Below are positions 3,308-42,082 of a stretch of DNA of 52,194 nucleotides, one piece after another (position 1 is the first letter of the stretch; every line of letters begins with the position of its first letter). The translations under genes and the position numbers were made by a program. The notes below the pieces were generated by a model. That model had not been told where the DNA came from. It did no database searches and worked only from the letters and a program-made list of their open reading frames with translations. The stretch covers positions 1 through 52,194 of the forward strand of contig CAINRS010000160.1 in NCBI GenBank assembly GCA_903852755.1, in the 5' to 3' direction. Source of the stretch: an uncultured Actinomycetes bacterium. GTDB lineage: Bacteria > Actinomycetota > Acidimicrobiia > Acidimicrobiales > Microtrichaceae.

Positions 3308-3412
3308 TGACCGTGGCAGTGACCGTGGCAGTGACCGTGGCAGTGACCGTGGCAGTGACCGTGGCAGTGACCGTGGCAGTGACCGTGGCAGTGACCGTGG
3401 CAGTGACCGTGG
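3308..3412. repeat. 12-bp tandem repeat, 8.75 copies
   Basis: Eight perfect copies of TGACCGTGGCAG (3308-3403) plus nine bases of a ninth. The array lies between the stop of the small membrane protein gene (3415) and the leaderless promoter of the OYE gene (-10 at 3271-3276), so it occupies the region from about -45 to -150 of that promoter. The unit length keeps any reading frame open, which produces long spurious ORFs across it on both strands. The copies are identical, indicating recent expansion or strong homogenisation. It may be a protein-binding array or a slippage-prone tract that tunes OYE expression. Confidence 0.95.
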
Positions 3413-3414
3413 AC

Positions 3415-3756
3415 TCAGTCGCGCCGACGACCACGCAGCACGGCCGTCGCCACACCGGCGACGGTCGACACGGCCGCGGCGGCGCCACCGGCGACGGCGG
3501 CGACCCGGCCCCAGAGGAACTGGCCCGGACCACCGTCGGGCAGGTCGATCACCCGGCGCTCGGCGTCGACGTACACGTCACCGACCGGTTCGAGCCCGAA
3601 GCCGACGAGTCGACCGTTTCGGACGTGGCCGAAGAGTCCACCGGGTAGTGCGACCGCGACGTCCTCGTGGGAGCGGAACGCGGAGTCCGCCGACTTGGCC
3701 AGGTCGATCGCCTGGGCGACGGTCCGCTCCAGCAGTTCCCTCGTCGTGTTCAACAT
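3415..3756 (-). CDS. Small membrane-associated protein of unknown function
   Basis: 113 aa from the ATG at 3756, chosen because GGAGG stands seven bases upstream; a longer GTG start at 3861 lacks such a site. The N-terminal ~45 residues are predicted helical (LLERTVAQAIDLAKSADSAF). The middle carries GLFGHVRNGRLVGFGLEPVGDVYVD. The C-terminal hydrophobic segment (VAAVAGGAAAAVSTVAGVATAVL) ends in a basic RGRRRD tail, consistent with a single C-terminal membrane anchor. It lies between the two OYE genes on the same strand. I do not recognise the family. A link to the redox module is suggested only by position. Confidence 0.65.
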   Translation of the reverse strand: MLNTTRELLERTVAQAIDLAKSADSAFRSHEDVAVALPGGLFGHVRNGRLVGFGLEPVGDVYVDAERRVIDLPDGGPGQFLWGRVAAVAGGAAAAVSTVAGVATAVLRGRRRD

Positions 3757-3916
3757 GGTCGCCTCCGAACTCCGCCCGGGGGCCGGTCGCCTCGCCACCT
3801 GCCCCCGCTCCGGATCACTCACCCTCGGGACCTCGTCCGGGGACGCCGTCCCAACGCCCACCGCCGATGCTCCGGTCGCCGAACCCTCGACGTCCCGTCA
3901 CACCGCCAACACCTCC

Positions 3917-3962: not shown

Positions 3963-6005
3963 TCATCCGGACAGTCCGACGGCCGCCCTCCGACCCTCGA
4001 GGACTGCCTCGTGGACCGTCCGGGGGGCGACGGCATCGCCGATGGTGCGTGCCGCCGGAACCTCCCCGGTGGGGAGCCGGTGGCCGGCGTCGATGACGGC
4101 AACGACGTCGAGGTCGACGCGCCGGGCGCTGAACCGGTCCTCGAGCGTCGCCGACGACGGAGCGACGGCGCGCAGCAGGCTCCGCCGGTGCAGGACCACC
4201 CCGGCGCGGGCCAGGCGGGAGTTGGCATCCGCCAGGTCCCCCGCCCGGGCCAGTTCGTTGCCGACGATGAAGTCCTGCGTCGCCAGGTGGACCACCCGAC
4301 CCGAGTCGGCGAGGCGCTCGGCGACGCCGATGCCGATCGGCCCTCCGATGGGATCCCACACCAGCACGTCACCGTCGGGCAGGTCACCGCCGACCGGATC
4401 GGACTCGAGCACGAGCCGGGCCGGGACCAGCCCTGCACCGTCCAGCAGCTCGACGGACGCGACACCGTCGGTGCCACCCACCGCCCACACCACCTCCGAA
4501 CCTGCGGCGATGAAGTCGTCGAGCACCTCCGGATCGATGCCAGAGCCGGTGCGGACCTCGACACCGAGCCGTTCGAGCTCGGCCTCGTACCACTCGGCGA
4601 GCGCGCCGAATCGTCCGCGACCCGGCAGGGCCGCGACCGTCCGCAGGAGCCCGCCGACCCGATCGTCACGCTCGTGGAGCACGACCCGCCGACCCCGGAG
4701 CGCGGCGGACCGTGCAGCCTCGAGCCCGGCAGGTCCCCCACCGACGACCACGACCGGCGCCGCGGTTCCGGCTCCGGACCCGGACCTGGCACCGTCGCCG
4801 CCAACGGAGTCGAACTCGGCGAGGGCCGGCTCGTCGGTCTCGTGTCCGGTCGCCGGGTCCACGGTGCAGCTCACGATCGGGTTGCGGTTGTCGCGCACGG
4901 CGCACTGCTGGTTGCACAGCACGCACGGCCGGATGCGTTCGGGGAGACCGGCGGTGAGCTTCGCCACGAGCGCAGCGTCGGCGAGCTGGGCGCGCGTCAT
5001 CTCGACCGCATCGGCGGCACCGCTCTCGAGTGCCCACGCCGCCTGACCGACGTCGACGATCGACCCCTGGGCCACGATCGGCACCCTGCCGTCGGTCACC
5101 TCGGACACGGCGGCCCGGACCGACCGGGTCAGCTCGAGGTTGAACCCCGGCTCGGTGTGGCCGTCGGGGCGGGTCGCCCCTGCGGAGTAGATCGAGCCGC
5201 GCACGACGGTGAGGAGGTCGACACGTGACGGACCGGAGACGAGCGCTGCCGCGAGGTCCGGGGCCTGCTCCGGGGTGATGCCCGCCCACGGGGCGAGCTC
5301 GTCGCACGACAGGCGGAGGGCGAGCACGGCGTCGGGTCCGATCGCCGCACGGACCGCATCGAGCACCTCGACGAGGAACCTGCTCCGGTCCGCCCCCCAC
5401 TCGTCGTCGCGGGTGTTGGTGAGGCCCGAGAGGAACTGCCGGGCCAGCGAGTACTGACCTGCGTTGACCTCGACGCCGTCGCAGCCGGACCCGACGGCCA
5501 GCGCGGCTGCGTCGGCGAACCCGGCGACGACGGCGGCGATGTCGTCGGGCTCCACCACCTTCGGGACCTCACGCGTGTTGACCTCGGGCACCGGGGACGG
5601 TGCCCACAGCTCACGCTGGCTCCAGTGCGAGGTCCCCTGGCCGCCGCTGTGCCCGATGCCGGCGAGCAGCACCGCTCCCGCGGCCTGACAGACCCTGGCG
5701 ACGTCGGTCCACCCCGGACCGCACTCCTCTGCGAGCGGAGCCCGCTCGAGGGGCCAGTCGGACGGGTGCACCGACGCCTCCTCGGTGACGATCAGCCCGG
5801 TTCCGGCCTCGGCCCGGCGGCGGTAGTGCGCGACGTGCCGGTCGGAGATGCTGCGTCCCCGACCGAGGTTGGTCTCGTGCGGCCCCAGGACGATCCGGTT
5901 GCGGATGGTCCTCGGACCGACGACGAGCGGGTCGAGCAGGCCGGGCACCGGAACATGCTGCCTCGCCGGTCGTGGCGCACCCCAACCCGACCGGTCGAGA
6001 CCCAC
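3963..6005 (-). CDS. FadH/OYE family oxidoreductase, second mycofactocin-system type
   Basis: 680 aa. An FMN TIM barrel occupies about residues 25-355 (RNRIVLGPHETNLG; VVEPDDIAAVVAGFADAA). A 4Fe-4S motif follows with Cys361, Cys364, Cys368 and Cys380 (CVLCNQQC...SC). The dinucleotide-binding domain begins at VVVVGGGPAGLEAA (~414). It is clearly homologous to, but much diverged from, the OYE gene at 1288-3264, and the two probably act on different substrates. The annotated start is a GTG with no ribosome binding site. The recognisable family N-terminus begins near residue 20 (GTG codon at 5948), so the true start may be there. The EAL gene ends 33 bases upstream, suggesting co-transcription. 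Confidence 0.9.
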   Translation of the reverse strand: MGLDRSGWGAPRPARQHVPVPGLLDPLVVGPRTIRNRIVLGPHETNLGRGRSISDRHVAHYRRRAEAGTGLIVTEEASVHPSDWPLERAPLAEECGPGWTDVARVCQAAGAVLLAGIGHSGGQGTSHWSQRELWAPSPVPEVNTREVPKVVEPDDIAAVVAGFADAAALAVGSGCDGVEVNAGQYSLARQFLSGLTNTRDDEWGADRSRFLVEVLDAVRAAIGPDAVLALRLSCDELAPWAGITPEQAPDLAAALVSGPSRVDLLTVVRGSIYSAGATRPDGHTEPGFNLELTRSVRAAVSEVTDGRVPIVAQGSIVDVGQAAWALESGAADAVEMTRAQLADAALVAKLTAGLPERIRPCVLCNQQCAVRDNRNPIVSCTVDPATGHETDEPALAEFDSVGGDGARSGSGAGTAAPVVVVGGGPAGLEAARSAALRGRRVVLHERDDRVGGLLRTVAALPGRGRFGALAEWYEAELERLGVEVRTGSGIDPEVLDDFIAAGSEVVWAVGGTDGVASVELLDGAGLVPARLVLESDPVGGDLPDGDVLVWDPIGGPIGIGVAERLADSGRVVHLATQDFIVGNELARAGDLADANSRLARAGVVLHRRSLLRAVAPSSATLEDRFSARRVDLDVVAVIDAGHRLPTGEVPAARTIGDAVAPRTVHEAVLEGRRAAVGLSG

Positions 6006-6038: not shown

Positions 6039-6830
6039 TCAGAACCCGAGTGGGAGCTGCAGCACCTGGTCACGCAGCAGCGGGCGGCTGTACAGGTACC
6101 CCTGTGCGAGGCCGACCCCGATGTCCTCGAGCACCCCGGCGTTGACCTCGGTCTCGACGCCCTCGGCGACCACGTCGAGGCCGAGGACCATGGCGAGTTG
6201 CACCGTGGCGGCGGCGACGCTGAACGGACCCAGTTCAGGGGTGAGGTCCGACACGAAGCTCCGGTCGATCTTGACCAGGTGGACCGGGAACGAACGCAGG
6301 TGGGTGAGCGAGGAGAACCCGGTCCCGAAGTCGTCGAGCGCGATCCGGAATCCCAGACGGTTCAGGTGGCTGAGCCGATCGGCGGCCAGCTCAGGGGACG
6401 ACACGAACGCCCCCTCGGTCAGCTCGATGACCACCGACTCCGGGCCCAGGCCGACCACGGCCATGGAACGGAGCAACGACTCAATCATGCCCTCGGCGAC
6501 CAGTTCCGACGCCGAGAAGTTCAGCGTGACGTACGCGTGGCTCCGGTCCGGACCGACGGCGTGCCACTCGCACAGGACCTCGAGCGCCCTCCCGAGGACC
6601 TGCCCCTGGATGGCCGGGAGCAGTCCGGACCGTTCTGCCTCGTCGACGAACACACCGGCCGGAACCACGTCGTCGGGACCCCGACGCCAACGCGCCAGAG
6701 CCTCGAATCCGGCGATGGTGCGGTCGTGGACGTGCACGATCGGCTGGAGCGCCGGCTCGAACTGCCGTCGGTCGATGGCCACCCGGAGGTCGGCGACCAG
6801 GTCACCGGAGATGTCGGCAGGCGGACTCAC
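6039..6830 (-). CDS. EAL-domain cyclic di-GMP phosphodiesterase
   Basis: 263 aa, a stand-alone EAL domain with no sensory or GGDEF part. The catalytic signature appears intact: E43-A-L in GFEALARW, NFSASEL, an ELTEG glutamate, ALDDFGTGFSSL (metal-binding Asp pair), KIDRSFV (Lys) and VVAEGVET. The predicted reaction is hydrolysis of c-di-GMP to pGpG in the cytoplasm. The start is GTG. It lies 93 bp downstream of a gene for an unknown protein and 33 bp upstream of the second OYE gene on the same strand, so it may belong to the kinase-led group upstream, the redox group downstream, or both. Confidence 0.93.
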   Translation of the reverse strand: MSPPADISGDLVADLRVAIDRRQFEPALQPIVHVHDRTIAGFEALARWRRGPDDVVPAGVFVDEAERSGLLPAIQGQVLGRALEVLCEWHAVGPDRSHAYVTLNFSASELVAEGMIESLLRSMAVVGLGPESVVIELTEGAFVSSPELAADRLSHLNRLGFRIALDDFGTGFSSLTHLRSFPVHLVKIDRSFVSDLTPELGPFSVAAATVQLAMVLGLDVVAEGVETEVNAGVLEDIGVGLAQGYLYSRPLLRDQVLQLPLGF

Positions 6831-6923
6831 GACGTCATCGTGTCAGGTCGACGGGAGGGGCACCATCCGTTCGACCCGACGAGGCTCGGGGCGTCCGTGC
6901 CAGCGACCGACAGGGTCGAGTGC

Positions 6924-7688
6924 TCAGACACCGTGGGACGCGACGAGACGCTCCAGCAGGCTGACCGCACAACTGCCACAGCGCTGCTCGAACCGGCTCG
7001 CCGGTCCCCGCTGGAGCACCGGGCCAGCAGGCAGCCGGCCGGGTGCCGGACCCGACGACGGAGCGAGCTCCGGGAGGATCTCCGAGACGCTCGAACGCCA
7101 GTCGGTCCCCTCGGGTAGCTCCCCACGACCCTGGACCGTCCCGACGTCGGCCACCGGCGCCACCTCGAGCTCACCAGGGAACCTGAGTCGCTCGACGACC
7201 CCCATGCAGATGGTGACGGTCTGCACCGAGGTGCACCCGGGGCAACCACCTACTCCCGCCTCCAGCATGGCAACCAGCTCCCGAGCCATGGACTCGAGGG
7301 GACCGGAGCTCTCGGTCCGTGGCGTCTGCTCCGGCGACAGGTCGTCGAGGTCGAGGACGTCGAGGGAGTGCGACGACACCGAGAGCGAGTGGAACGCCGA
7401 GGTGGCGCGCACCTTCGTCCGGCCCAGGTCGAGCGCATCGTTGGTCAGTTGACGGACCGCGTAGCGGGTGGCGGCCTCGTCGTCGACCATCCACACCGGC
7501 AACGACCGCCCTCGGGACCGCAGACGATCCACCGATGTCCGAACGGACAACCTCCACTCGGTGTGCAGGTCCTCGGCCAGGTCCGCCACGTCGTTGCGAG
7601 ACGCCACCGCCACGGTCACCTGGTAGGCAGCGTCCGAGGCGTGGTAGCCGTCGAACCAGTCGACGTAGCGGTCGTGGGACCAGATCAC
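6924..7688 (-). CDS. Hypothetical protein with C-terminal Cys pairs
   Basis: 254 aa. The GTG start is supported by GAGGGG six bases upstream. No signal peptide or membrane segment is seen. The first ~110 residues look alpha/beta (YQVTVAVASRNDVADLAEDL; DDEAATRYAVRQLTNDALDLG). Two cysteine clusters stand out, CPGC near residue 149 and CGSC near 239, which could bind a metal or form redox pairs. I do not recognise the family. It sits between the 345-aa unknown protein and the EAL gene, all minus strand with short gaps, so it is probably part of that operon. Confidence 0.7.
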   Translation of the reverse strand: MIWSHDRYVDWFDGYHASDAAYQVTVAVASRNDVADLAEDLHTEWRLSVRTSVDRLRSRGRSLPVWMVDDEAATRYAVRQLTNDALDLGRTKVRATSAFHSLSVSSHSLDVLDLDDLSPEQTPRTESSGPLESMARELVAMLEAGVGGCPGCTSVQTVTICMGVVERLRFPGELEVAPVADVGTVQGRGELPEGTDWRSSVSEILPELAPSSGPAPGRLPAGPVLQRGPASRFEQRCGSCAVSLLERLVASHGV

Positions 7689-7725
7689 GTCCGGCCCCTC
7701 GGTCCAGCGGTCCGCAGACGACCCG

Positions 7726-8763
7726 TCACGTCGTCCCGTCCTGGAGCAGCGCGGCGAGGTCGGCGACTTCTCCGGCGTACGGTTCGACGGACGGCAGGCC
7801 AGGTTCGGTCCGAGGGGTCCGACCGATGGAGCTCCAGGCCAGATTGGACTGGTCGAGCAACGGTCGGGCGAGCTCCCCCATACCCAGCCGGTCCGCCTGA
7901 GCTGCGCGGCGTGCCAACTCCGTCGCCTGCCGGGCGACGCGGAGGCGCGCCGACGGTGGGCGGCCGACGTCGGAGGTCATCCACAGGGACAGCGAACCCA
8001 CGGGGCGACCGCGCCCGACGACGACCCTGGAACTGGCGCCGAGCCGGGCGGCGTCACCGTCGGGCTGGAACGACGAGACGCCCACCACGATCCCGGTGGC
8101 GTCCTCCACGAGCACGGCCGAGATGCCGGTGACCGCTGCCACGTAGATGCCCGCTCGGAACCCGGTGCCGACCGACACCGCGCCGTCACCGGGGACGGCA
8201 CGGGTCCTGGTCCGCCGTACATCGAGCACACCCGAGCTCAGCCACGACGGATCGACCCAGACCGGTCCGTCCTCGGCGACACCACCGACGACGGGCGGCA
8301 AGCTCACGAAGGCCTCCTGAGCGTCCGAGAGCGCCCCACCGTCGGAGGGCCCGGTGGCCGACGGCTCAACGCGGAGACCCAGCTGCTGTCGGAGGGACGT
8401 CGCCTCCGCCGACCACGCGTCCGAGGAGGGGCCAGCGGCCTCACTTCGCTCGTACTCGGAGTGCAGCACAGCCAAACGTGAGACGACTGCGCCCACGTCG
8501 TCCGCCAGCTGGCTCGTTCGGTCCGGGATGGGGTGAGCGAGTCCGAGCACGCGGAGCGACTCCTCCACCTCGTCGTCCAGCAGGCCGCCCGGGTCGACGG
8601 CGTCCACCACGAGGCCGAGGAGTCGCTGGTCGAGCGCGTCGGCGTAGGCGACCACACCGTCGACCAACGAGACGGCTGCCACACCGGCTGGGCCGGGCTC
8701 CGCTCCGGTCACGAGCTCCCACCGCCAGAGCTCCGAGTCGAAGACCTGATCGAGCTCAGTCAC
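7726..8763 (-). CDS. Hypothetical protein of the kinase/surface-protein gene group
   Basis: 345 aa, GTG start, acidic, cytoplasmic by composition. The N-terminal part holds a VVAYADALDQRLLGLVVDAV stretch. The central part (~160-270) is beta-rich, with RAGIYVAAVTGISAVLVEDA and GIVVGVSSFQPDGDAARLG. The C-terminal ~70 residues are helical (RVARQATELARRAAQADRLG). No catalytic motif is evident and I cannot name a family. The gene starts 21 bp after the stop of the IPT/Thr-stalk surface protein gene and ends 37 bp before the next gene on the same strand. Confidence 0.7.
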   Translation of the reverse strand: MTELDQVFDSELWRWELVTGAEPGPAGVAAVSLVDGVVAYADALDQRLLGLVVDAVDPGGLLDDEVEESLRVLGLAHPIPDRTSQLADDVGAVVSRLAVLHSEYERSEAAGPSSDAWSAEATSLRQQLGLRVEPSATGPSDGGALSDAQEAFVSLPPVVGGVAEDGPVWVDPSWLSSGVLDVRRTRTRAVPGDGAVSVGTGFRAGIYVAAVTGISAVLVEDATGIVVGVSSFQPDGDAARLGASSRVVVGRGRPVGSLSLWMTSDVGRPPSARLRVARQATELARRAAQADRLGMGELARPLLDQSNLAWSSIGRTPRTEPGLPSVEPYAGEVADLAALLQDGTT

Positions 8764-8784
8764 GGCAGCTCAATCCCACGGACA

Positions 8785-10593
8785 TCACCACGGTCCGTCC
8801 CGCTCGTCGTCCGGTTCCCGCTGGTCCGGCCCGCTCGAGACCCAGGCGCGGGAAGTGAGCAGCACGACGCAGCACGCAAGTAGGACCAAGAGCGCGACAC
8901 CTGCCGGCGTCACCGCGGTCGAGGCCACCGTCGCCACCGCCCGGACGGTCGGCGACCCAGGGTCCTCCTGACCACCCGACGGTGCACCCGATGGCGGCGG
9001 CGGGTCGGCAGCGGGAGCTGCAGACTCTGCAACCCCGACGACGGGCGGGTCAGGTTCCGGCGGTGAGGCAGTTGGAACGGTCGCAGGCGTCCCGGCCGAA
9101 GGGCGACTGGGCCGAGCCGTCCCGGTCGACGTGGTCGAGGACCGACCCGGCCCGGGCACGGTCCTCACGCCAGCCACCTCCGGCGACTGCGGGATCGTCG
9201 TGGCCGACGGTGGCGGTCCGAGCGGCACCGTCGTGGTGGTCGGCACCGTCGTGGTGCTCGTGGTGGTCGGGGGAACCGTCGTCGTGGTCGTCGGGACCGT
9301 CGTCGTGGTCGGGGGAACCGTCGTCGTGGTGGTCGAGGTGGTCGGGGGAACCGTCGTCGTGGTCGTCGGGACCGTCGTCGTGGTCGGGGGAACCGTCGTC
9401 GTGGTCGTCGGGACCGTCGTCGTGGTCGTCGGCACCGTCGTCGTGGTCGTCGTGGTCGTCGTGGTCGGAATGCACAGTTCCGGGTCCGTCGCTCCAGGTC
9501 CCACAGTGGTGGTCCCACTCGGACACGTCGTCGGCCCGGTGGCGCCCTCGACGTCCACGTAGGTTCCGATCGGTGCGGGGAGACAGGCCGTCGCACCGGC
9601 GACCCCGCTGAACGTCCCCGGCGGACAGATAGACGGCGAGGTCGCCCCCTCGGTGTCCACGAACGACCCAGGTGGTGCCGGGTCGCACGGCTCGACACCC
9701 TCGCTCGAGAACGTCCCCGGCGCACAGGCTCCGGGGACCCCATCGAGGATCCACGCGAAGCTCTGGGCGCTCTGCGAGTCCTGCCCGAGATCGCCGTTCG
9801 CGACGACGATGCGGGCCGTCTCCGTCTCGTAGATCGGGGGTGAGACCACCACGACCTCCCGGTCGGAGAGCACGGTGAAGCTCGGCCTGCACGCCGTGCA
9901 GAAGCCACCGAACCCGACGTTCGTAACTCCCGTGAACCCGCAGCCGGTGAGGACCACCTCGGTGCCGCCATCTGCAGGACCGAACTGCGGGTCGAACCCG
10001 AACACCACGGGACCTGAGTCCGGCGGCAGGAAGGCACATCGATCGTCCGGCACGGGAGGAGGGGCGACCTCCGAGGTGTACTCGAACAGCCCGGGACTGA
10101 TCGAGACACTGCCGGACCATCCGAGCCGGAGTCGGACCTCCGAGACCTCGGGTGTCGGCGGCGAGACAGCGACGATCACGTTGTCGGAGACCACCGTGAA
10201 GTCGGCCGACCGGTCGCCGAAGGCGACCGACTCGACCTGGCGGAACGAGCAACCGAGCAGCAGCACGGACGTGCCCCCCGTGGTCGGGCCACTGGACGGC
10301 GAGAACCCCAACACCACTGGTCCGCTCGCCGCAGGCGGACCGATCTCCAGGTCCACCGTCCCGCCCACTGGAGCCGGAACCCCACACACGTCGGTCGGGA
10401 CCACACCGTCCCCGCCGGGTCCGGGAGCGTCCGGGAACACCGGCGGCGGCGAATCCGGTCCGACCGGCGGCGATTCGCTCAGGATCGGCGAGGAGCGCAA
10501 CCCTCCTCCGATCGAGGCGAAGGTCCATCCCAGGATCAGCAGGACGGCGAGTGCCGGACCGAGCCGTGGCCTGAGTCCCTGCCGTGTTCCCAC
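8785..10593 (-). CDS. Surface protein: signal peptide, two IPT/TIG domains, Cys-rich repeats, Thr/Pro stalk, C-terminal membrane anchor
   Basis: 602 aa from the GTG at 10593, chosen for the GGGGAG site six bases upstream; TTG and ATG codons at 10644 and 10611 are alternatives. Order: basic n-region plus hydrophobic signal or anchor (~8-28); two IPT/TIG-like Ig domains, each opening with GPVVLGFSPSSGPTTGGT or GPVVFGFDPQFGPADGGT; a GCC2/GCC3-like Cys-rich stretch (CAPGTFSSEGVEPCDPAPPG, repeated about three times); a long Thr/Pro/Val stalk; a Pro/Ser-rich linker; and a transmembrane helix (AGVALLVLLACCVVLLTS) before an acidic tail. No LPXTG-like motif is seen. It is probably a cell-surface adhesin or structural protein. 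It follows the kinase and a signal-peptide membrane protein in one direction. Confidence 0.85.
   Translation of the reverse strand: MGTRQGLRPRLGPALAVLLILGWTFASIGGGLRSSPILSESPPVGPDSPPPVFPDAPGPGGDGVVPTDVCGVPAPVGGTVDLEIGPPAASGPVVLGFSPSSGPTTGGTSVLLLGCSFRQVESVAFGDRSADFTVVSDNVIVAVSPPTPEVSEVRLRLGWSGSVSISPGLFEYTSEVAPPPVPDDRCAFLPPDSGPVVFGFDPQFGPADGGTEVVLTGCGFTGVTNVGFGGFCTACRPSFTVLSDREVVVVSPPIYETETARIVVANGDLGQDSQSAQSFAWILDGVPGACAPGTFSSEGVEPCDPAPPGSFVDTEGATSPSICPPGTFSGVAGATACLPAPIGTYVDVEGATGPTTCPSGTTTVGPGATDPELCIPTTTTTTTTTTVPTTTTTVPTTTTTVPPTTTTVPTTTTTVPPTTSTTTTTVPPTTTTVPTTTTTVPPTTTSTTTVPTTTTVPLGPPPSATTIPQSPEVAGVRTVPGPGRSSTTSTGTARPSRPSAGTPATVPTASPPEPDPPVVGVAESAAPAADPPPPSGAPSGGQEDPGSPTVRAVATVASTAVTPAGVALLVLLACCVVLLTSRAWVSSGPDQREPDDERDGPW
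9225..9470. repeat. Low-complexity tandem tract encoding the Thr/Pro/Val stalk
   Basis: Degenerate 6- to 24-bp repeats built from gtcgtggtc and ggaaccgtc units, encoding TTTTVP-type repeats on the minus strand. The opposite strand gives a spurious poly-Val ORF. The length is probably variable between strains. Confidence 0.9.
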
Positions 10594-10634
10594 CCGTCGC
10601 TCCCCAGGCATGCGCCGACAATCCGACCCCCTGC

Positions 10635-10640
10635 ACGGTA
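10635..10640 (-). promoter_or_regulatory. Possible -10 element (TACCGT) of the IPT surface protein gene
   Basis: TACCGT on the minus strand would give a transcript starting near 10628, about 35 nt before the chosen GTG. It would exclude the TTG at 10644 as the start. No convincing -35 is present. Confidence 0.35.
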
Positions 10641-10758
10641 CCAACCTGACGGCCAGGGGCGCTGCGGTGGGTAGGACCGCCCAGGAGGGCCCGTCCCGCT
10701 CCGGTCGGCGCGAAGGTGACGGGGTGGCGACCCGGGACCCCGTCGGACCGCCCGCTCG

Positions 10759-11625
10759 TCAGCCGCCGCGGTACGGGGGCGGCTGAGGCACCGATCCGGG
10801 CGGCGCTCCGCTTTCCGGTACGAACGCGACCGTCCCGCCGATGCTGTCGAACTCGTCCTCCATGCTCAGCGGGCCGGGCGAGATCCAGCCCACAAGCCCC
10901 CCGAGGACCACTGCGATCAGCACGAGCGGAATCGCCACTCCGAGCGTCGGCGCCAGGATCCCGAGCAACGACAGGGACATGACCAGCGCCGTGGCGGCAC
11001 CCAGTCCGATCAGACCGAAGCGGACTGCCCGGCGCCAGCGGCTCGGCGCCAACCGCCGTCTCGACACCGCTACCAGCGTCGCGATCAGACCAGCCACCGT
11101 GAGTCCGGCCACGACGAGCGTGAAGACCGAGAGCACCGAGACCGGGGAGCCCGCAACCCGGAGCACGAAGTCCTGCGAACCGAGCACCTCACGCTCGGTC
11201 GACAGCACCTCGAGCCGTCCGACCAGCAGCCCGGACGCCTGGTGCTCGGCGCTGACGAACACGTCCTGCCCGTCGACCACCAGGTCGACGGTCTGCCCCG
11301 GCCGGATCCTCGTGGGGTCGTAGGACACATCGAGACCGACCACCGACAGGCCGAGCACCCGGCCGGCGATCCTGACGCGACCAACCTCGACGACCTGGTC
11401 GGAGTCGTTGGTGGCACGGACCACGATGTCGGTCTGGCCGATCGGTTCGACCACCACCGGAGCACCACTGTCGGCCTCGGCGAGCGACTGACCGTTGATC
11501 GACGCGTCGACGCTGAGCGACCCGCCTTCGGCGAGCGCGACGGCCCACGGGCCGAGCGTCACTGCCAGCAGCGCGGCGGCGACCACCCCCGCCCTGACCC
11601 GGAGTGAGTTCCTGCCGGACGTCAC
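10759..11625 (-). CDS. Secreted/membrane protein with signal peptide and two C-terminal membrane helices
   Basis: 288 aa from the GTG at 11625, preceded by GAGGGGAG four bases upstream; a much longer open frame upstream lacks coding character. A cleavable signal peptide is likely (SLRVRAGVVAAALLAVTLGPWAVALA). An extracytoplasmic beta-rich domain follows (~30-165: IVVRATNDSDQVVEVGRVRI, then SYDPTRIRPGQTVDLVVDG), reminiscent of an Ig-like or NEW3-like fold. Then come a hydrophobic segment (SVFTLVVAGLTVAGLIATLVAV), a basic loop, further hydrophobic segments (FGLIGLGAATALVMSLSLLGI; VAIPLVLIAVVLGGLVGWI) and a Pro-rich cytoplasmic tail. It lies between the kinase and the IPT surface protein and may be a kinase partner. 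The family is not recognised. Confidence 0.8.
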   Translation of the reverse strand: MTSGRNSLRVRAGVVAAALLAVTLGPWAVALAEGGSLSVDASINGQSLAEADSGAPVVVEPIGQTDIVVRATNDSDQVVEVGRVRIAGRVLGLSVVGLDVSYDPTRIRPGQTVDLVVDGQDVFVSAEHQASGLLVGRLEVLSTEREVLGSQDFVLRVAGSPVSVLSVFTLVVAGLTVAGLIATLVAVSRRRLAPSRWRRAVRFGLIGLGAATALVMSLSLLGILAPTLGVAIPLVLIAVVLGGLVGWISPGPLSMEDEFDSIGGTVAFVPESGAPPGSVPQPPPYRGG

Positions 11626-11701
11626 CGTGCTCCCCTCACCGGGGATCTGAACCCCTCGCTGAACCCTCCACCGATCGTCGACACGCACCGCACGCCGACA
11701 C

Positions 11702-13387
11702 TCACCCAGGATCCTCGACCATGGCCACCACGCGGTAGTGGCGGCGTCGGCGTTGCAGCAGCCCGAAGCGCGCCGCCAGACACGACGTCCCAATCCCGAC
11801 CAGCGCCCCGACCAACCCGCCCAGGGCCAGTGAGAAGGCGCTGAGCACCCCGCCGCCGAGGGTCCAGAACCAGAGCGTCAGGCACGACCCGACGACAGCT
11901 GCGCTGAGGGTGAGCCCGACGGCGCTCCCGGTCAGTCGGACACCCCGGACGAGCGCCCGCAGGTTGGCGACGGCGACCGCGAGCGCACCGACGACGAACA
12001 CGAGCGGCAGCCAGCCGCCAATGGTCGCGTACCACGGCTTCGCAGACGCGGAACGCACGGTGAACGGCACGACCCGAAGTCCCGGGCCCGAGTCGACACC
12101 GTCCCGGAGGATCATCTCGGCGCTCAGGTCCGCCGAGTTCCAGATGCCCCGGAGCACGCGCTGGGACTCCTGTCGGTCCGGGACTGCGAGCGTGGCCTGC
12201 CAGGCCCCGTCGGGTCCGACGACCGGCGCCGGGTCGGTCAATTCACCCAACTGGATCGGGCCCGCGCTCGCTCGGACCGACACCGACACCGACTCCGGCA
12301 CCGGCTCGGACTCCCGCCCGGAGATGACCACTGGTCGGCTCAGGTCGACCACGATCGGTGTCACCGTGGCCAGGTCCTGACCGGCGACGAAGTACACCCC
12401 CTGTGTCACGGCGGCCGGTTCGGGCGCTGCGAGGGGGCCGCCCCCGAGCACGAGTGCGAGCGCAGCCGCAGCCAGGGCGACCCCACCGACCACGGCGAGC
12501 GTCCGGCGCCGGGACCCGTCGGGCTCAGCCCCAGCATCGGCCCGATCGGGCGGCGGCGTCGCAGGGGATGGGGCCGGAGGCGTGGCCTCGGCGCCAGCCG
12601 GAGCCACGGACGCCACCGGTGCCGCCGGAGCGACCGGTGGCGGCACATCGAACTCGGCCACCGTCGGCAACTGCTCGGCCGGCCAGGCCGGGACCAGTGC
12701 GAGGCCCTCCAGAAAACGGGCTGCGGAACGAGCCGACTGCGGACGGTCGGTCGGCTCGGGTTGCACCAGCGCCGCAGCGAGGGAGGTCAACTCCGGGTGC
12801 GGGGTCGAGCAGCGGTCGAGGACCATGCCCAGGATCACCCCCACCGAGTACAGGTCTGACCTCTGGTCGGCATCGGCGCCGTAGAGGACCTCCGGCGCCA
12901 TGAAGCCGGCGGTGCCGGCGGCGGTCGGCATCTGGGTGACCCGCGGCCGGTCGATCGCCACGGCCAGTCCGAAGTCGCTGATCCGCACGGTCGGACGGAC
13001 CGAGCCTGCCGGCAGGTCGAGCAGTGCGTTCGACGGTTTGATGTCGCGGTGGACGACGCCGCTGTCGTGGAGCTGGGCGAGGCCCAGGAGCAGCTGTCGG
13101 GCGACGTCGACGGCGACCCACGGGTCCACCTGCTCGTGGGAGCCGAGCCACTCCTGCAGGTCCCCGGCGTTGGAGTACTGCATCACGAGCAGCGACCGAC
13201 TCCGATCCTGGAGCCAGTCGAGGTTGCGGACCAGATTGGGGTGGTCGACGTCGAGTTGCTGCTCGTTCAGGAATCGCAGCCGGGCCTCACCGTCGGACGC
13301 CTCGAGCACCTTGACCGCCACGAGAGTGCCGCCCGGAGCGACCGCCAGCAGCACGGACCCGCTGGCTCCCCGCCCGAGTCTCGCCAC
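11702..13387 (-). CDS. Membrane Ser/Thr protein kinase (start disrupted)
   Basis: 561 aa from the first usable in-frame start. Hanks-type kinase: Gly loop GRGASG (5-10), VAVK with Lys26, HRDIKPSN (catalytic Asp115), DFG (138-140), APE (164-166). A Pro/Ala-rich juxtamembrane linker precedes a transmembrane helix (~300-318), an extracytoplasmic beta-rich region (~325-455), and three or four further hydrophobic segments. The GTG at 13387 would start the protein just before the Gly loop. The in-frame DNA upstream still encodes a kinase-like lead-in (PFDPLVGTPYRLVARLGRG) but has no start codon before a stop, so a frameshift is likely (see the region 13388-13524). It heads the group of surface and unknown proteins downstream. 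Confidence 0.88.
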   Translation of the reverse strand: MARLGRGASGSVLLAVAPGGTLVAVKVLEASDGEARLRFLNEQQLDVDHPNLVRNLDWLQDRSRSLLVMQYSNAGDLQEWLGSHEQVDPWVAVDVARQLLLGLAQLHDSGVVHRDIKPSNALLDLPAGSVRPTVRISDFGLAVAIDRPRVTQMPTAAGTAGFMAPEVLYGADADQRSDLYSVGVILGMVLDRCSTPHPELTSLAAALVQPEPTDRPQSARSAARFLEGLALVPAWPAEQLPTVAEFDVPPPVAPAAPVASVAPAGAEATPPAPSPATPPPDRADAGAEPDGSRRRTLAVVGGVALAAAALALVLGGGPLAAPEPAAVTQGVYFVAGQDLATVTPIVVDLSRPVVISGRESEPVPESVSVSVRASAGPIQLGELTDPAPVVGPDGAWQATLAVPDRQESQRVLRGIWNSADLSAEMILRDGVDSGPGLRVVPFTVRSASAKPWYATIGGWLPLVFVVGALAVAVANLRALVRGVRLTGSAVGLTLSAAVVGSCLTLWFWTLGGGVLSAFSLALGGLVGALVGIGTSCLAARFGLLQRRRRHYRVVAMVEDPG

Positions 13388-13524
13388 GAGCCGGTACGGC
13401 GTTCCGACCAGCGGGTCGAACGGCGGCGGACCTCCCGGTGGGGCTCCGGGCGACGTCAGGTCGGACAGGGTTCCAACCTGCTGCGTCGCGCCGAGATCGT
13501 CGGCCGAGGATCGGGTTCAGTCAC
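13388..13524 (-). other. Probable original N-terminus of the kinase gene, out of frame by one base
   Basis: A GTG at 13524-13522 has a good ribosome binding site (GGAGAGG at 13533-13527) and begins VTEPDPR. The downstream in-frame continuation of the kinase (SADDLGATQQVGTLSDLTSP..., leading into PFDPLVGTPYRLVARL) is in another frame. The 137-bp distance to the kinase GTG is two bases more than a multiple of three. Adding one base within about 13500-13515 would join the two into a normal kinase start. It is either a real frameshift mutation, a recoding site or a sequencing error. Confidence 0.55.
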
Positions 13525-13680: not shown

Positions 13681-14850
13681 TCAGCGCCGACTGGTGGGGC
13701 GCAGCGTCACCGGCGAGGGCACGGGGACGCCCGGACGGGAGTGGTCGACGGTGGACCGCGGCAACTCGGCGTCGCCGATCGCTGCGAGGAGCGGCTCGGC
13801 GTTGCCGAGCACGCACTCGGGGTCGGGGTCGGTGAGGTCGAGTCCCACGAAGAACTTCGATGCCATGCAGCCGCCCTGACAGGCGTCGTAGCTCCCGCAA
13901 CTGACGCACGCACCGGCACTGTCGGGCTCCCGGAGCGACGCGAACAGGTCGGAGTCGCGCCAGACACCGGTGAACCCGCCCCGGTCGCGGACGTTGCCGG
14001 CGAGGAACTCGTCGTGGATGACGAACGGGCACGCGTAGACGTCACCGACCGGATCGATCAGGCACACCACCCGGCCGGCACCGCAGAGGTTGAGGCCGGG
14101 CAGCGGCTCACCGAGCGCCGAGAGGTGGAAGAACGAGTCACCGGTGAGGACGTCCGGTCGGTCGAGCAGCCAGTGGTAGAGCCGGCGCTGCTGCTCCTGC
14201 GTCGGGTGGAGGTCGTGCCAGGAGTCGGCCCCCCGACCCGACGGCCGCAGCCGGGTGACCCGCAGCTGGGCGCCGTACCCGGCCGCGATCTCGCGGAAGC
14301 CGTCGAGCTGGTCGACGTTGTGGCGGGTCACGACGAGGGAGATCTTGAACGGCCCGAACCCGGCGTCGCGGAGGTGGCCCATCGCCTGGTGCGCTGCGGC
14401 GAAGGACCCTGCGCCGCGGACTGCGTCGTTGACCGTGGCGTCGGCTCCGTCGATCGAGATCTGGACGTCCACGTAGTCCATCGCCGCGAGCCGCTCGGCG
14501 GCGGCCCGGTCGATGAAGGTGCCGTTCGTCGAGAACTTCACGCCGACCTGGTGGTCGGTGGCGTACTGCACGATCTCGAAGAAGTCCTGGCGCAGCATGG
14601 GCTCGCCGCCGCCGAGGTTGACGTAGAAGACCTGGAGCCGCTGGAGCTCGTCGACGACAGCGAAGCACTCCTCGGTGGTCAGCTCGGCAGGGTCACGTCG
14701 ACCCGAGCTCGACAGGCAGTGCACGCAGCTCAGGTTGCAGGCGTAGGTGAGCTCCCACGTGAGGCAGATCGGGGCGTCGAGGCCCAGCCGGAACTCCTCG
14801 ACGAGCGGACGCGTGGCCGCGGGCGGCTGGGCGACGATCTCAGGCGGCAC
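13681..14850 (-). CDS. mftC: Mycofactocin radical SAM maturase MftC
   Basis: 389 aa. Radical SAM Cx3Cx2C motif at Cys38, Cys42 and Cys45 (CNLSCVHC) binding the SAM-cleaving 4Fe-4S cluster. A C-terminal SPASM region carries Cys256, Cys263, Cys274, Cys315, Cys318, Cys324, Cys328 and Cys346 for auxiliary clusters. In the established pathway MftC oxidatively decarboxylates the C-terminal Tyr of MftA and then forms a Val-Tyr carbon-carbon bond. The glycyl-rich NLGGGEPMLRQDF stretch is typical of SPASM maturases. The start overlaps the end of mftB by 11 bases. The other maturation genes (mftD, mftE, mftF) are not adjacent: a hairpin and the kinase gene follow. Confidence 0.96.
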   Translation of the reverse strand: MPPEIVAQPPAATRPLVEEFRLGLDAPICLTWELTYACNLSCVHCLSSSGRRDPAELTTEECFAVVDELQRLQVFYVNLGGGEPMLRQDFFEIVQYATDHQVGVKFSTNGTFIDRAAAERLAAMDYVDVQISIDGADATVNDAVRGAGSFAAAHQAMGHLRDAGFGPFKISLVVTRHNVDQLDGFREIAAGYGAQLRVTRLRPSGRGADSWHDLHPTQEQQRRLYHWLLDRPDVLTGDSFFHLSALGEPLPGLNLCGAGRVVCLIDPVGDVYACPFVIHDEFLAGNVRDRGGFTGVWRDSDLFASLREPDSAGACVSCGSYDACQGGCMASKFFVGLDLTDPDPECVLGNAEPLLAAIGDAELPRSTVDHSRPGVPVPSPVTLRPTSRR

Positions 14851-15160
14851 GGAGGACCTCCGAGTCGGACAACGTGGTCAGGGCGGCGAGGAACGAGCCG
14901 TACCGGCCCGGGTCCACGCCCACGCCGTCGAGGGCCTCGCGCACCGTCAGCTCACCGTCGAGGGCCTCGACCACGGCGAGCAGGTCGACGTGCTTGATGA
15001 ACGACAGCCGCCGGTTGCCGAAGTGGTAGGCGAGGGCCCCGAACCGTTCGGGACGGAACGAGACGTCGGGGTGCACGACCAGTCGGTCGTCGAGGGCGAC
15101 GGGCACGGGGTGCTCGGTGTCGGTCCGGACGGACTGCGGTGCGGTCAGTAGACCCCGCAC
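14840..15160 (-). CDS. mftB: Mycofactocin precursor-binding chaperone MftB
   Basis: 106 aa, a RiPP recognition element of the PqqD-like winged-helix fold that delivers MftA to MftC. The family signature VVHPDVSFRPERFGALAYHFGNRRLSFIKH is plain, followed by helices rich in Leu/Val. The GTG start at 15160 overlaps the last 16 bases of mftA, so translation is coupled. A slightly later start is possible, since the first ~20 residues are not conserved in character. It lies between mftA and mftC as in known mycofactocin loci. Confidence 0.94.
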   Translation of the reverse strand: MRGLLTAPQSVRTDTEHPVPVALDDRLVVHPDVSFRPERFGALAYHFGNRRLSFIKHVDLLAVVEALDGELTVREALDGVGVDPGRYGSFLAALTTLSDSEVLRAA

Positions 15161-39940: not shown

Positions 39941-41608
39941 TCAGGAGCAGGCCGGCCCGCTCGAGATCGACCGCTTGGTGCCACCCGAGTTGCCGTTCCC
40001 ATCGGTCGCCGAGGCCGAGAGGGTCACGACCGTCGCCGGCTGCGGGAACACCAGTGACACGGAGATCGACGAGCCGCCGGAGGACTTGCCGCCCGAGAGC
40101 CCGCCACCGCTCCAGGAGAGCGTGATGCCGGAGACCCCGGAGGGGTCCGAGGCCGACGCCGTGAACGCGCCGGTCCCACCCCAGGGGACGCACGACGGTC
40201 CCGAGATGCTGACCGACGGCCCCGTGACGTCCGGGGGCTGCGTCGTGGTCGTCGTCGACGGAGGCGGAGACGGAGGGGATGGCGGAGGGGCCGGCGGGGG
40301 GACCGGTGCAGGAACGGGCGCCGGCGGGGGCAGGGGCACCGCCTGGGGGATGGTGGTCGGCCGCGGACGATCGGCCGCGACCGACGTGGTGGTCTCGCCC
40401 GGAGGGATCCCGGACGCGGCTCCGGAACCCGGGCCGGGCACCGGAGCCGGAGTCAGGCCCGGCAGGAGCGGCACCGTGGTGTCCGGGGTCGTCGTGGTGG
40501 TGCTCGACGTCGTCGTGGTCGACTCCGGCACCGGGGACGAGAACACCTCCTCGACCTCGCCCGGGTCGAGGAGCAGCGCCCCACCGCCGAGCACCAGCAG
40601 GGCGACGACGGCGGCACCGACGGCCAGCGGCCAGCGTCGGCGACCGGCACCTGCCGGGGGGAAGCCGTCGGAGCGCCAACGACCACCACGGGGCGCACCG
40701 AGCCGGGCGGGCGCCTCGGCGAGGAATCGCTCCCGCGCCGAGATCGGTGCGGCGAGGACGGTGGACTGCGCCGAGAGCGCCAGGGCCGAACCCGACAGGA
40801 CCGCCTTGGCCAGGCGCGAGCGCATCGAACCGCAGCGTTCGCACTGCTTGATGTGCCGGGCGAAGCGCTTCCTCCACAGGACGTTGAACTCACCGTCCCA
40901 GGAGTCGGCCACCTCGTCGAGGCCGTCGCACGAGGCGCGACCCGACCTGGCGATGAGCAGGGCCGAGGTGGCGGCCTCGAGCCGTTCCTTCATGCGGTGC
41001 ACCAGCTGGTACCCGTGGTCCCGCTTGACCCCGAGCGCGTCGGCGAGCTCCTGGCCGTCGAGACCCTGGGCCAGGTGCAACTCGAGCACCATCCGGTCCC
41101 GGTCGTCGAGCCCGGCGGCGGCGTCCTGGAGCAGCGCGGCGAGATCGGCGGGACTCGCCCCCGGTTCGAGCCCGATCCCGTCGGACTGGTCTGCGTGACC
41201 CGACCCGAACGGATCGACCACCGGGAAGTCGTCCAGCGCAGCGAGGTCCCCGGGGTCGGCCCCGCTGTCGGCGAACACGTCGGACACCGCCGCCGGGTCG
41301 AGTCCGACGGCGCCGACGGCACCGAGCGAGACCTCCCGCCGGCGGAGCCGGGTGCGCCGGTACACCTCGTGGCGGGCGATGGCGTAGAGCCACGACTTGA
41401 GCTTGGCCGGCTCACGGAGCTGTCCGAGCCGCTCCGCCGCAGTGAGGAACACCTCGGCGGTCACGTCCGCAGCGGCGTCGTCGTCACGGAGCATGTGGGC
41501 GCACATGGTGTGGATCCGGTCCGCGTACCGGTCGTAGAGGACCGCGAGTGCACCGCTGTCCCCCTCGAGGATCCGCTCGACGAGCGCTGCGTCGGTGAGC
41601 GTGTCCAT
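39941..41608 (-). CDS. Membrane-tethered ECF sigma factor fused to a zinc anti-sigma-like motif and an external Ig-like domain
   Basis: 555 aa from the ATG at 41608 (AGGA nearby); the longer open frame is not coding-like. Sigma region 2 spans ~5-90 (RIHTMCAHMLRDDDAAADVTAEVFL) and region 4 ~160-215 (LDDRDRMVLELHLAQGLDGQELADALGV). Then Cys227 and His252-x3-Cys256-x2-Cys259 (HIKQCERC) match the zinc anti-sigma motif. One transmembrane helix (327-347) leads to a Thr/Pro-rich stalk (~365-470) and a C-terminal Ig-like domain (~475-555) with Cys, SGVSGITLSWSGGG and FPQPATVVTLSASATDG. The protein is therefore a sigma factor, its probable inhibitor and an external sensor in one chain. A small membrane protein gene precedes it. 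Confidence 0.88.
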   Translation of the reverse strand: MDTLTDAALVERILEGDSGALAVLYDRYADRIHTMCAHMLRDDDAAADVTAEVFLTAAERLGQLREPAKLKSWLYAIARHEVYRRTRLRRREVSLGAVGAVGLDPAAVSDVFADSGADPGDLAALDDFPVVDPFGSGHADQSDGIGLEPGASPADLAALLQDAAAGLDDRDRMVLELHLAQGLDGQELADALGVKRDHGYQLVHRMKERLEAATSALLIARSGRASCDGLDEVADSWDGEFNVLWRKRFARHIKQCERCGSMRSRLAKAVLSGSALALSAQSTVLAAPISARERFLAEAPARLGAPRGGRWRSDGFPPAGAGRRRWPLAVGAAVVALLVLGGGALLLDPGEVEEVFSSPVPESTTTTSSTTTTTPDTTVPLLPGLTPAPVPGPGSGAASGIPPGETTTSVAADRPRPTTIPQAVPLPPPAPVPAPVPPPAPPPSPPSPPPSTTTTTQPPDVTGPSVSISGPSCVPWGGTGAFTASASDPSGVSGITLSWSGGGLSGGKSSGGSSISVSLVFPQPATVVTLSASATDGNGNSGGTKRSISSGPACS

Positions 41609-41682
41609 GCGTCCTGCACCCTTCGCCCGGTGGGGCACCATCTTGCACCACGACCGCCGGGTCCGGGCCCGCATCGGGTCCA

Positions 41683-41967
41683 TCACGACGCGACCGTCCG
41701 GAGTCGGCGGCCGGCGGCACCGACCGCCCCGAGCACCCCGGCCGCGGCCAGCAGCGCCAGACCGGCGATCAGGACGGGGGCGCCACCCTGCCGGAGCGGC
41801 CAGGTGAGCAGGCTGCCGCCATCGGCCCCCACCGGTCCGTGACCGGGCACCACCGGCCAGAGGGCGGCCAGGACCAGCAGGACCACCCCGACGGCGGCAC
41901 GGCAGGCCGGTCGACCTGCGGATCGATCGGGAGTCCGTCGGGACCGGGTGTGGTTCGGGTGGCGCAC
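41683..41967 (-). CDS. Small membrane protein with two hydrophobic segments
   Basis: 94 aa, GTG start with GGAGG seven bases upstream. A basic N-terminus is followed by a helix (AVGVVLLVLAALWPVVPG), a short outer loop and a second helix (VLIAGLALLAAAGVLGAVGA) before a basic tail. No family is recognised. It ends 75 bases before the sigma fusion gene on the same strand and may be co-transcribed with it. Confidence 0.65.
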   Translation of the reverse strand: MRHPNHTRSRRTPDRSAGRPACRAAVGVVLLVLAALWPVVPGHGPVGADGGSLLTWPLRQGGAPVLIAGLALLAAAGVLGAVGAAGRRLRTVAS

Positions 41968-42082
41968 GTGCGGACCTCCTGCTCGGTGGCGGGCTCGTTC
42001 GAGCCCTCACCTGCAGGAGCACACGGCTCCGGGAATCTGACACTTCTCGCCAGCCCGGATCCCCGGGCCGGGCGCCGACGGG

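Follow-up and report, generated by a model that had tools for sequence, protein, structure and literature searches.

We analysed contig C160 (CAINRS010000160.1; 52,194 nucleotides, hereafter the window) of the 3.16-Mb draft genome G000, from an uncultured actinomycete of the family Microtrichaceae. Six consecutive minus-strand genes at 6039-13516 form a 7.5-kb insert between mftC and the mycofactocin oxidoreductase gene OYE_1, and they combine members of two gene sets that recur separately in other genomes. We give about an even chance to the proposal that this locus is a hybrid signalling cassette in the mycofactocin operon, in which a surface signal would pass through a membrane Ser/Thr kinase to a sigma-like protein and its partner. 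The kinase itself looks chimeric: its catalytic domain resembles those of a sigma-linked lineage (module B) and its tail that of a surface-kinase lineage (module A). The group does not match any single known pathway, and it is more than a random collection of genes.

A kinase of hybrid make-up

An earlier note on this DNA had described six genes on one strand, beginning with a membrane Ser/Thr kinase with an outer domain, and both descriptions were borne out. The kinase domain matches Pfam at 2.2e-39, and hydropathy places one transmembrane segment (TM), an outer domain and three further TMs after it. The motifs VAVK, HRDIKPSN and DFG, which are those of Hanks-type Ser/Thr kinases, lie in frame and supply the catalytic Lys, HRD and DFG. 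The start at 13524 given by the earlier note had to be abandoned, since translation from there runs into a stop codon at 13458. In the kinase frame, which is open from 13516, the first ATG, GTG or TTG is a GTG at 13387, only a short distance ahead of the Gly-rich loop; a frame error in the draft assembly and an unusual start are candidate causes for the lack of a usable start codon.

We built a tree from 16 catalytic domains. It places the window kinase with those of the sigma-linked loci in genomes G003 and G017 and on contig SXMI01000175.1 (SXMI) (support 96/92, with G017 on a long branch) and gathers the eight surface-half kinases in a clade of their own (100/99). The tail of the window kinase matches a profile of three surface-half kinases, built with the window left out, at 2e-13. 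Neither the tail nor the Ig profile gave a match at the ten sigma-linked loci (E up to 0.1), and the nine other surface-half loci yielded no sigma-like gene. The chimeric kinase is the strongest link between the two halves.

The surface-kinase half

Module A pairs an Ig-like/3-TM protein with a kinase whose tail is of the same type; many of its loci also have a large surface gene. Its Ig-like/3-TM member in the window (the 344-aa (amino acid) protein) has no Pfam family above cut-off; LEA_2 fell below the cut-off and was rejected. A search of 347 genomes found relatives in 11, two with weak matches; the matches in G124 and G291 were left out. The carriers seen are G021, G087, G088, G162, G196, G296, G312 and G352. 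Nine of the ten module-A loci (nine genomes, window counted) encode a kinase whose Ig/3-TM tail matches, the sole locus without one being the second in G087. A full FHA-cyclase gene lies at 5/10 loci (the two that were scanned both match Pfam FHA and Guanylate_cyc), and a large surface-type gene, recognised by eye, is nearby at 7/10.

Profile-profile comparison shows homology between the tail of the kinase and the free-standing Ig/3-TM protein (probability 97, score 78.7; maximum 21.7 in 100 shuffles and 25.3 for reversed profiles), and this homology suggests that the two proteins act as paired sensors. The third gene encodes a surface protein with IPT/TIG domains (Pfam 8.2e-12), ephrin-receptor-like Cys-rich repeats (2e-10) and a Thr-rich repeat stalk, in agreement with the earlier note. 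No surface gene of the other module-A loci is a BLAST relative of this TIG protein; among three surface genes of other genomes that were scanned, two had Ig, cadherin-like or SpaA matches and one had none. The window group further differs from the module-A loci of related genomes in lacking an FHA-cyclase, in having a sigma-like output and in the clade of its catalytic domain; it shares with them the Ig/3-TM protein, the kinase tail and a surface gene nearby.

In G021, a single stretch (L017 3915-16105) carries a surface protein, an Ig/3-TM protein, a kinase, an FHA-ABC transporter and an FHA-cyclase. This locus type is recurrent and may deserve a study of its own; to our knowledge, the surface gene/Ig/3-TM/kinase/FHA-cyclase locus of related genomes has no published name. 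Mycobacterium tuberculosis PknF adjoins the FHA-ABC transporter Rv1747, an arrangement like that at G021 and unlike the window group, which has no FHA gene.

The 254-aa protein resembles sigma-2

Module B consists of a 254-aa protein, its 345-aa neighbour and, at 5/10 loci, a kinase. The earlier note had called both proteins cytosolic and of no known kind, which still fits the 345-aa protein (soluble, no Pfam family) but not the 254-aa protein, which is sigma-2-like. Pfam gave nothing above cut-off for the latter, and Spb1_C, below cut-off, was rejected. Searches at E up to 0.001 gave matches in 6/397, 8/395 and 6/376 genomes in three draws, weak ones counted. Weak matches in G015, G321 and G399 (nothing relevant seen in these regions by eye), the matches in G401 and G430, and five of the six third-draw matches (E 2.3e-6 to 3.9e-4) were left out of the family, which besides the window protein comprises G003 (same genus, 41% identity), SXMI, G017, two members in G383, G427, G608, G616 and G079.

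We compared this ten-row family with ECF sigmas, represented by five of the 17 sigma-2 matches of the same genome, and obtained a profile-profile probability of 87.9 (score 46.1 over 65 columns; maximum 17.96 in 200 column shuffles and 13.05 for reversed profiles). The close and distant parts of the family match the ECF sigmas separately, with probabilities of 46.6 and 43.5. An AlphaFold2 model from three rows (window, L043, which is the G003 contig, and L044) has a mean pLDDT of 66.6; its first hundred residues form four helices and are mostly confident (block pLDDT 65-94). When Foldseek's top 44 chains were re-aligned with VIA, the first 11 of 24 rows were all sigma-factor structures, polymerase-complex chains being counted as sigma by their titles. 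These rows have Z values from 8.6 to 4.7, the next fold 4.3, and the best row (Z 8.6) spans 81 residues at a root-mean-square deviation of 2.8. From the profiles and the model, we read the first ~100 residues as sigma-2 and the protein as a predicted divergent ECF-like sigma, which would recognise promoters and bind core RNA polymerase.

A relative in the same genome, on contig C58 (L062 4627-7129), aligns with the family over 203 columns (probability 66.7). Only sigma-2 was recognised in it: Sigma70_r2 scored 3.2e-5, above cut-off, in one scan and 6.3e-5 (23.1 bits, cut-off 24) in a second. This relative has its own overlapping 564-aa neighbour gene, and a search of the 14 kb around it turned up no kinase. 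A profile search of the PDB gave two matches (E 0.27 and 1.9) and led nowhere. Elsewhere in the window, at 39941-42043, a 700-aa open reading frame (ORF) combines an ECF sigma domain with an extended C-terminal region.

Several results count against a sigma assignment. The window sequence alone reached a probability of only 2.9 against the ECF sigmas, and Foldseek found nothing significant with the model (best E 5.7). VIA warns that Z values of this size can reflect an arrangement common in helical proteins. In Pfam, Sigma70_r2 touched one of four family members scanned (E 0.063) and did not match the window protein at E up to 1. Sigma-4 was not recognised either; there is no Pfam match to it, and the profile alignment spans sigma-2 only.

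The C-terminal part, of low confidence in the model, has no known match and contains two CxxC pairs, each intact in 8/10 family rows. Together with the recognition of sigma-2 alone, this would also suit a protein that binds polymerase in a sigma-2-like manner but serves as a co-sigma or a polymerase-binding inhibitor, the 345-aa protein being its co-factor. SigO/RsoA of Bacillus subtilis is an example of a split or partial sigma system. We consider this role distinctly unlikely: the own-genome relative matches Sigma70_r2 and aligns with the family at length, and an extreme sigma-4 could escape recognition where the model is poor. A novel, two-part and kinase-gated class of transcription initiation factor appears improbable; here, the 254-aa protein would provide sigma-2, its Cys-paired C-terminus or the 345-aa protein would replace sigma-4, and the hybrid kinase would link the factor to a surface sensor.

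Kinases and partner genes beside the sigma-like genes

A motif scan found a kinase at the window and at four of the nine other sigma-like loci, two of which (G003 and SXMI) are near-copies. Apart from the window, the scan covered stretches 3.8 to 14.9 kb long, some of them truncated where a contig ended, and a stricter pattern missed one true kinase (L077) that Pfam later confirmed.

At 11/11 loci the sigma-like gene has a neighbour on its own strand at a distance of -56 to +146 bp, which taken alone has little evidential value. The neighbourhood search proposed in the earlier note gave a divided answer: a 345-aa homologue stands clearly next to the sigma-like gene in G003, G017, SXMI and G427 (probability 92.7) and went undetected at the two G383 loci. 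Homology is moderate in G608 and G079 (probabilities 28 and 36, exceeding 40/40 shuffles). The window has the partner gene first and then the sigma-like gene; at the other loci the sigma-like gene comes first. The structure model of the 345-aa protein is poor (mean pLDDT 44.9; rows: window, L043, L044), and a related-locus search with this protein gave 264 pattern matches and no relative.

This neighbour could follow classical anti-sigma logic, the 345-aa family being an anti-sigma from which the kinase, or elsewhere a TM segment, releases the sigma-like protein. The partner gene adjoins the sigma-like gene, often overlapping it. Neighbours in G383a, G608 and G616 have TM segments, and no kinase was found there in the stretch examined; the partners of G000, G003, SXMI and G017, the four kinase-linked loci tested, have no TM, and that of G427 looks soluble by eye. 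The loci are few and partly related, however, and the neighbours in G079 and of the own paralogue are soluble though no kinase was seen. For the G383 neighbours, no homology to the 345-aa family could be detected, and Pfam matched no known anti-sigma domain in the 345-aa protein. We hold this logic tentatively, at somewhat less than an even chance; it is compatible with the hybrid cassette. Canonical ECF sigma/anti-sigma pairs likewise form a two-gene unit whose neighbour has a TM in some members, and differ in that the window protein has no known anti-sigma domain and a kinase is present.

The mycofactocin host operon

The earlier note had left the group unplaced; it in fact lies inside a mycofactocin cluster, with mftB and mftC upstream on the same strand and OYE_1, OYE_2 and mft_etfA downstream (Table 1). 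For the Ig/3-TM and TIG genes we chose starts later than the listed ORFs, which places the signal peptide at the N-terminus. The gaps between the six genes are then 76, 147, 21, 37 and 93 bp. A scan for promoters and terminators was uninformative.

Table 1 Features of the six-gene group and its flanks in the window
Feature	Coordinates	Strand	Basis or remark
Ser/Thr kinase, apparently chimeric: catalytic domain, TM, Ig-like outer domain, three TMs	11702..13516	-	Pfam, hydropathy, tree
Ig-like/3-TM membrane protein (344-aa protein), signal peptide	10759..11625	-	ORF listed from 11793; start chosen at 11625
Surface protein: two IPT/TIG, ephrin-receptor-like Cys-rich repeats, Thr-rich repeat stalk, C-terminal TM	8785..10611	-	ORF listed from 10644; start chosen at 10611
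345-aa soluble partner protein of the sigma-like protein	7726..8763	-	
254-aa predicted divergent ECF-like sigma: sigma-2 domain (~residues 1-100) and C-terminal part, two CxxC pairs	6924..7688	-	
Stand-alone EAL phosphodiesterase (predicted)	6039..6830	-	Signature residues present by eye
mftC	13681-14850	-	Upstream host operon
mftB	14840-15160	-	Upstream host operon
Mycofactocin OYE_1 oxidoreductase	3963..6005	-	Downstream host operon

mftC scored above cut-off in 24 of 41 genomes searched (window's own counted), and its region was taken from 15 of the other 23. An OYE_1 match lies within ~150 bp of mftC in seven of these 15 relatives (G002, G004, G005, G008, G010, G013 and G014) and was not found in the stretch examined of four (G006, G007, G020 and G021). 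The spacing is ~0.8 kb in G003 and in G009, ~1.1 kb in G017 and ~2.7 kb in G015 (stretches L108, L112, L115 and L119). By eye, the genes at these junctions are nitroreductase-like in G003, O-methyltransferase-like in G009, ion-channel-like in G017, and DHPS-like and O-methyltransferase-like in G015. Since the junction is empty or differently filled in relatives, the six-gene group is an insertion into a site that accommodates other genes as well. Its base composition does not set it apart (0.712, against 0.713 for 15494-52194).

Two further features lie in the operon. Just upstream of mftB, an ORF ending at 15145 on the minus strand has the C-terminus IDGMCGVY, which resembles the tail of the mycofactocin precursor MftA. 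A perfect 12-bp tandem repeat (8.8 copies, 3308-3412) lies between the end of a short gene at 3415-3861 and the OYE_2 start at 3264.

The EAL protein

The last gene encodes the stand-alone EAL protein that the earlier note had recognised (Pfam 2.9e-54; 184.4 bits, cut-off 31.3). It is the shortest open frame among the 16 EAL matches of the genome, and its signature residues are present as judged by eye. We considered the EAL protein as a conserved part of the system and rejected this, as 0/19 other loci had a BLAST match. An EAL match at the G017 mycofactocin locus is no counterpart, because it belongs to a 984-aa multi-domain protein. A place for the protein in the pathway is a guess, and cyclic di-GMP (c-di-GMP) hydrolysis is predicted from its sequence.

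Weighing the hybrid cassette

The surface-to-phosphorylation/c-di-GMP pathway suggested by the earlier note survives in part. A surface-sensing kinase system is supported, because the kinase and the Ig/3-TM protein recur together, as do the 254-aa protein, the 345-aa protein and the kinase; c-di-GMP turnover as a conserved part is not. The idea of one conserved six-gene pathway was ruled out, as the two halves occur separately elsewhere. Independent scattering of the homologues, which the earlier note held to speak against a common system, is seen only in part: the halves lie apart, and each recurs as a set.

A number of findings speak against a functional cassette. The window genome is the only one common to both carrier lists, which come from draws that overlapped only partly, and the complete six-gene set was seen in this genome alone. 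BLAST at E up to 1e-3 found nothing related to the TIG surface protein or the EAL protein at the other 19 loci. No kinase was found at 5/10 sigma-like loci in the stretch examined, a weak negative because the scan was a motif pattern over short, partly cut stretches. Three kinases beside the G427 sigma-like gene fall outside the window kinase's group. Homology to the 345-aa protein is marginal in G616 and in the own paralogue (probabilities 4 and 3, exceeding 40/40 shuffles), and at the two G383 loci, where it was not detected, 5 and 15 of 40 shuffles scored as high.

The six genes might therefore be chance neighbours, that is, two unrelated cassettes and an EAL gene gathered at a variable mycofactocin insertion spot with no shared pathway. 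The other genes at the junction in G003, G009, G017 and G015, the separate occurrence of the halves and the lack of TIG and EAL relatives would all fit. Chance adjacency does not explain, however, why the kinase itself unites both halves, and the intergenic gaps are short (21-147 bp); we regard chance as unlikely. At G427 there are FHA-cyclase matches near the sigma-like gene, and at G296 (L080) a canonical ECF sigma adjoins the Ig/3-TM and kinase pair, which suggests that such halves can meet more than once.

In the hybrid cassette, the TIG/Cys-rich/Thr-stalk protein, the Ig/3-TM protein and the Ig/3-TM tail of the kinase would form or gate an outer sensor, and the sensed signal would activate the kinase. 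By analogy with published kinase-sigma systems, the kinase may then phosphorylate the sigma-like protein, the 345-aa partner or both, altering their binding. The sigma-like protein would engage RNA polymerase and switch on a small regulon. The earlier note had named phosphorylation and c-di-GMP as outputs; the main predicted output is instead transcription by the sigma-like factor, and the EAL enzyme may lower c-di-GMP simultaneously, as a side output of the same predicted transcript.

Relation to known systems

Kinase-sigma pairing is proven in ECF43 for EcfP/PknT and EcfK/PknS; EcfP and EcfK are phosphorylated in sigma-2.2 by the neighbouring kinases, EcfK also in the linker, and the group is defined by replacement of the acidic sigma-2.2 motif with a Thr-containing motif (PMC8999054, PMC13147305). 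The window resembles ECF43 in encoding a sigma-2-bearing protein beside a Ser/Thr kinase. It differs in its mostly kept acidic sigma-2.2 residues, the lack of a recognised sigma-4, the conserved CxxC pairs, the partner gene and the Ig/3-TM tail of the kinase. We did not file it as ECF43, because the acidic motif A-E-D-L-x-x-E is retained; for the same reason the ECF43 switch, in which phosphate replaces a missing charge, is unlikely to apply to the letter, a further point against the proposed mechanism. A Thr51-Ser/Thr52 doublet shortly after the acidic motif is a candidate site of phosphorylation, being present in 5/5 kinase-linked rows and 0/5 others. It may be merely clade-specific, because the rows linked to a kinase tend to cluster in a single clade (74/81). 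The 254-aa protein also offers its Ser-rich linker as a candidate region for phosphorylation.

A literature search, in which subscription journals were only thinly covered, found no description of this gene composition. A kinase-linked sigma-like system is known in kind; the divergent sigma, the partner gene and the domain-swapped sensor kinase would be a new variation. If the proposal is true, a divergent, family-less group of sigma-like proteins with a partner gene joins the few kinase-linked sigma systems. The locus would also capture evolution in the act, with the catalytic half of a kinase drawn from a sigma-linked lineage and its sensor half from a surface-protein lineage. With such a kinase one could test directly whether, in uncultured actinobacteria, Ser/Thr kinases use domain swapping to reconnect surface sensing with transcription.

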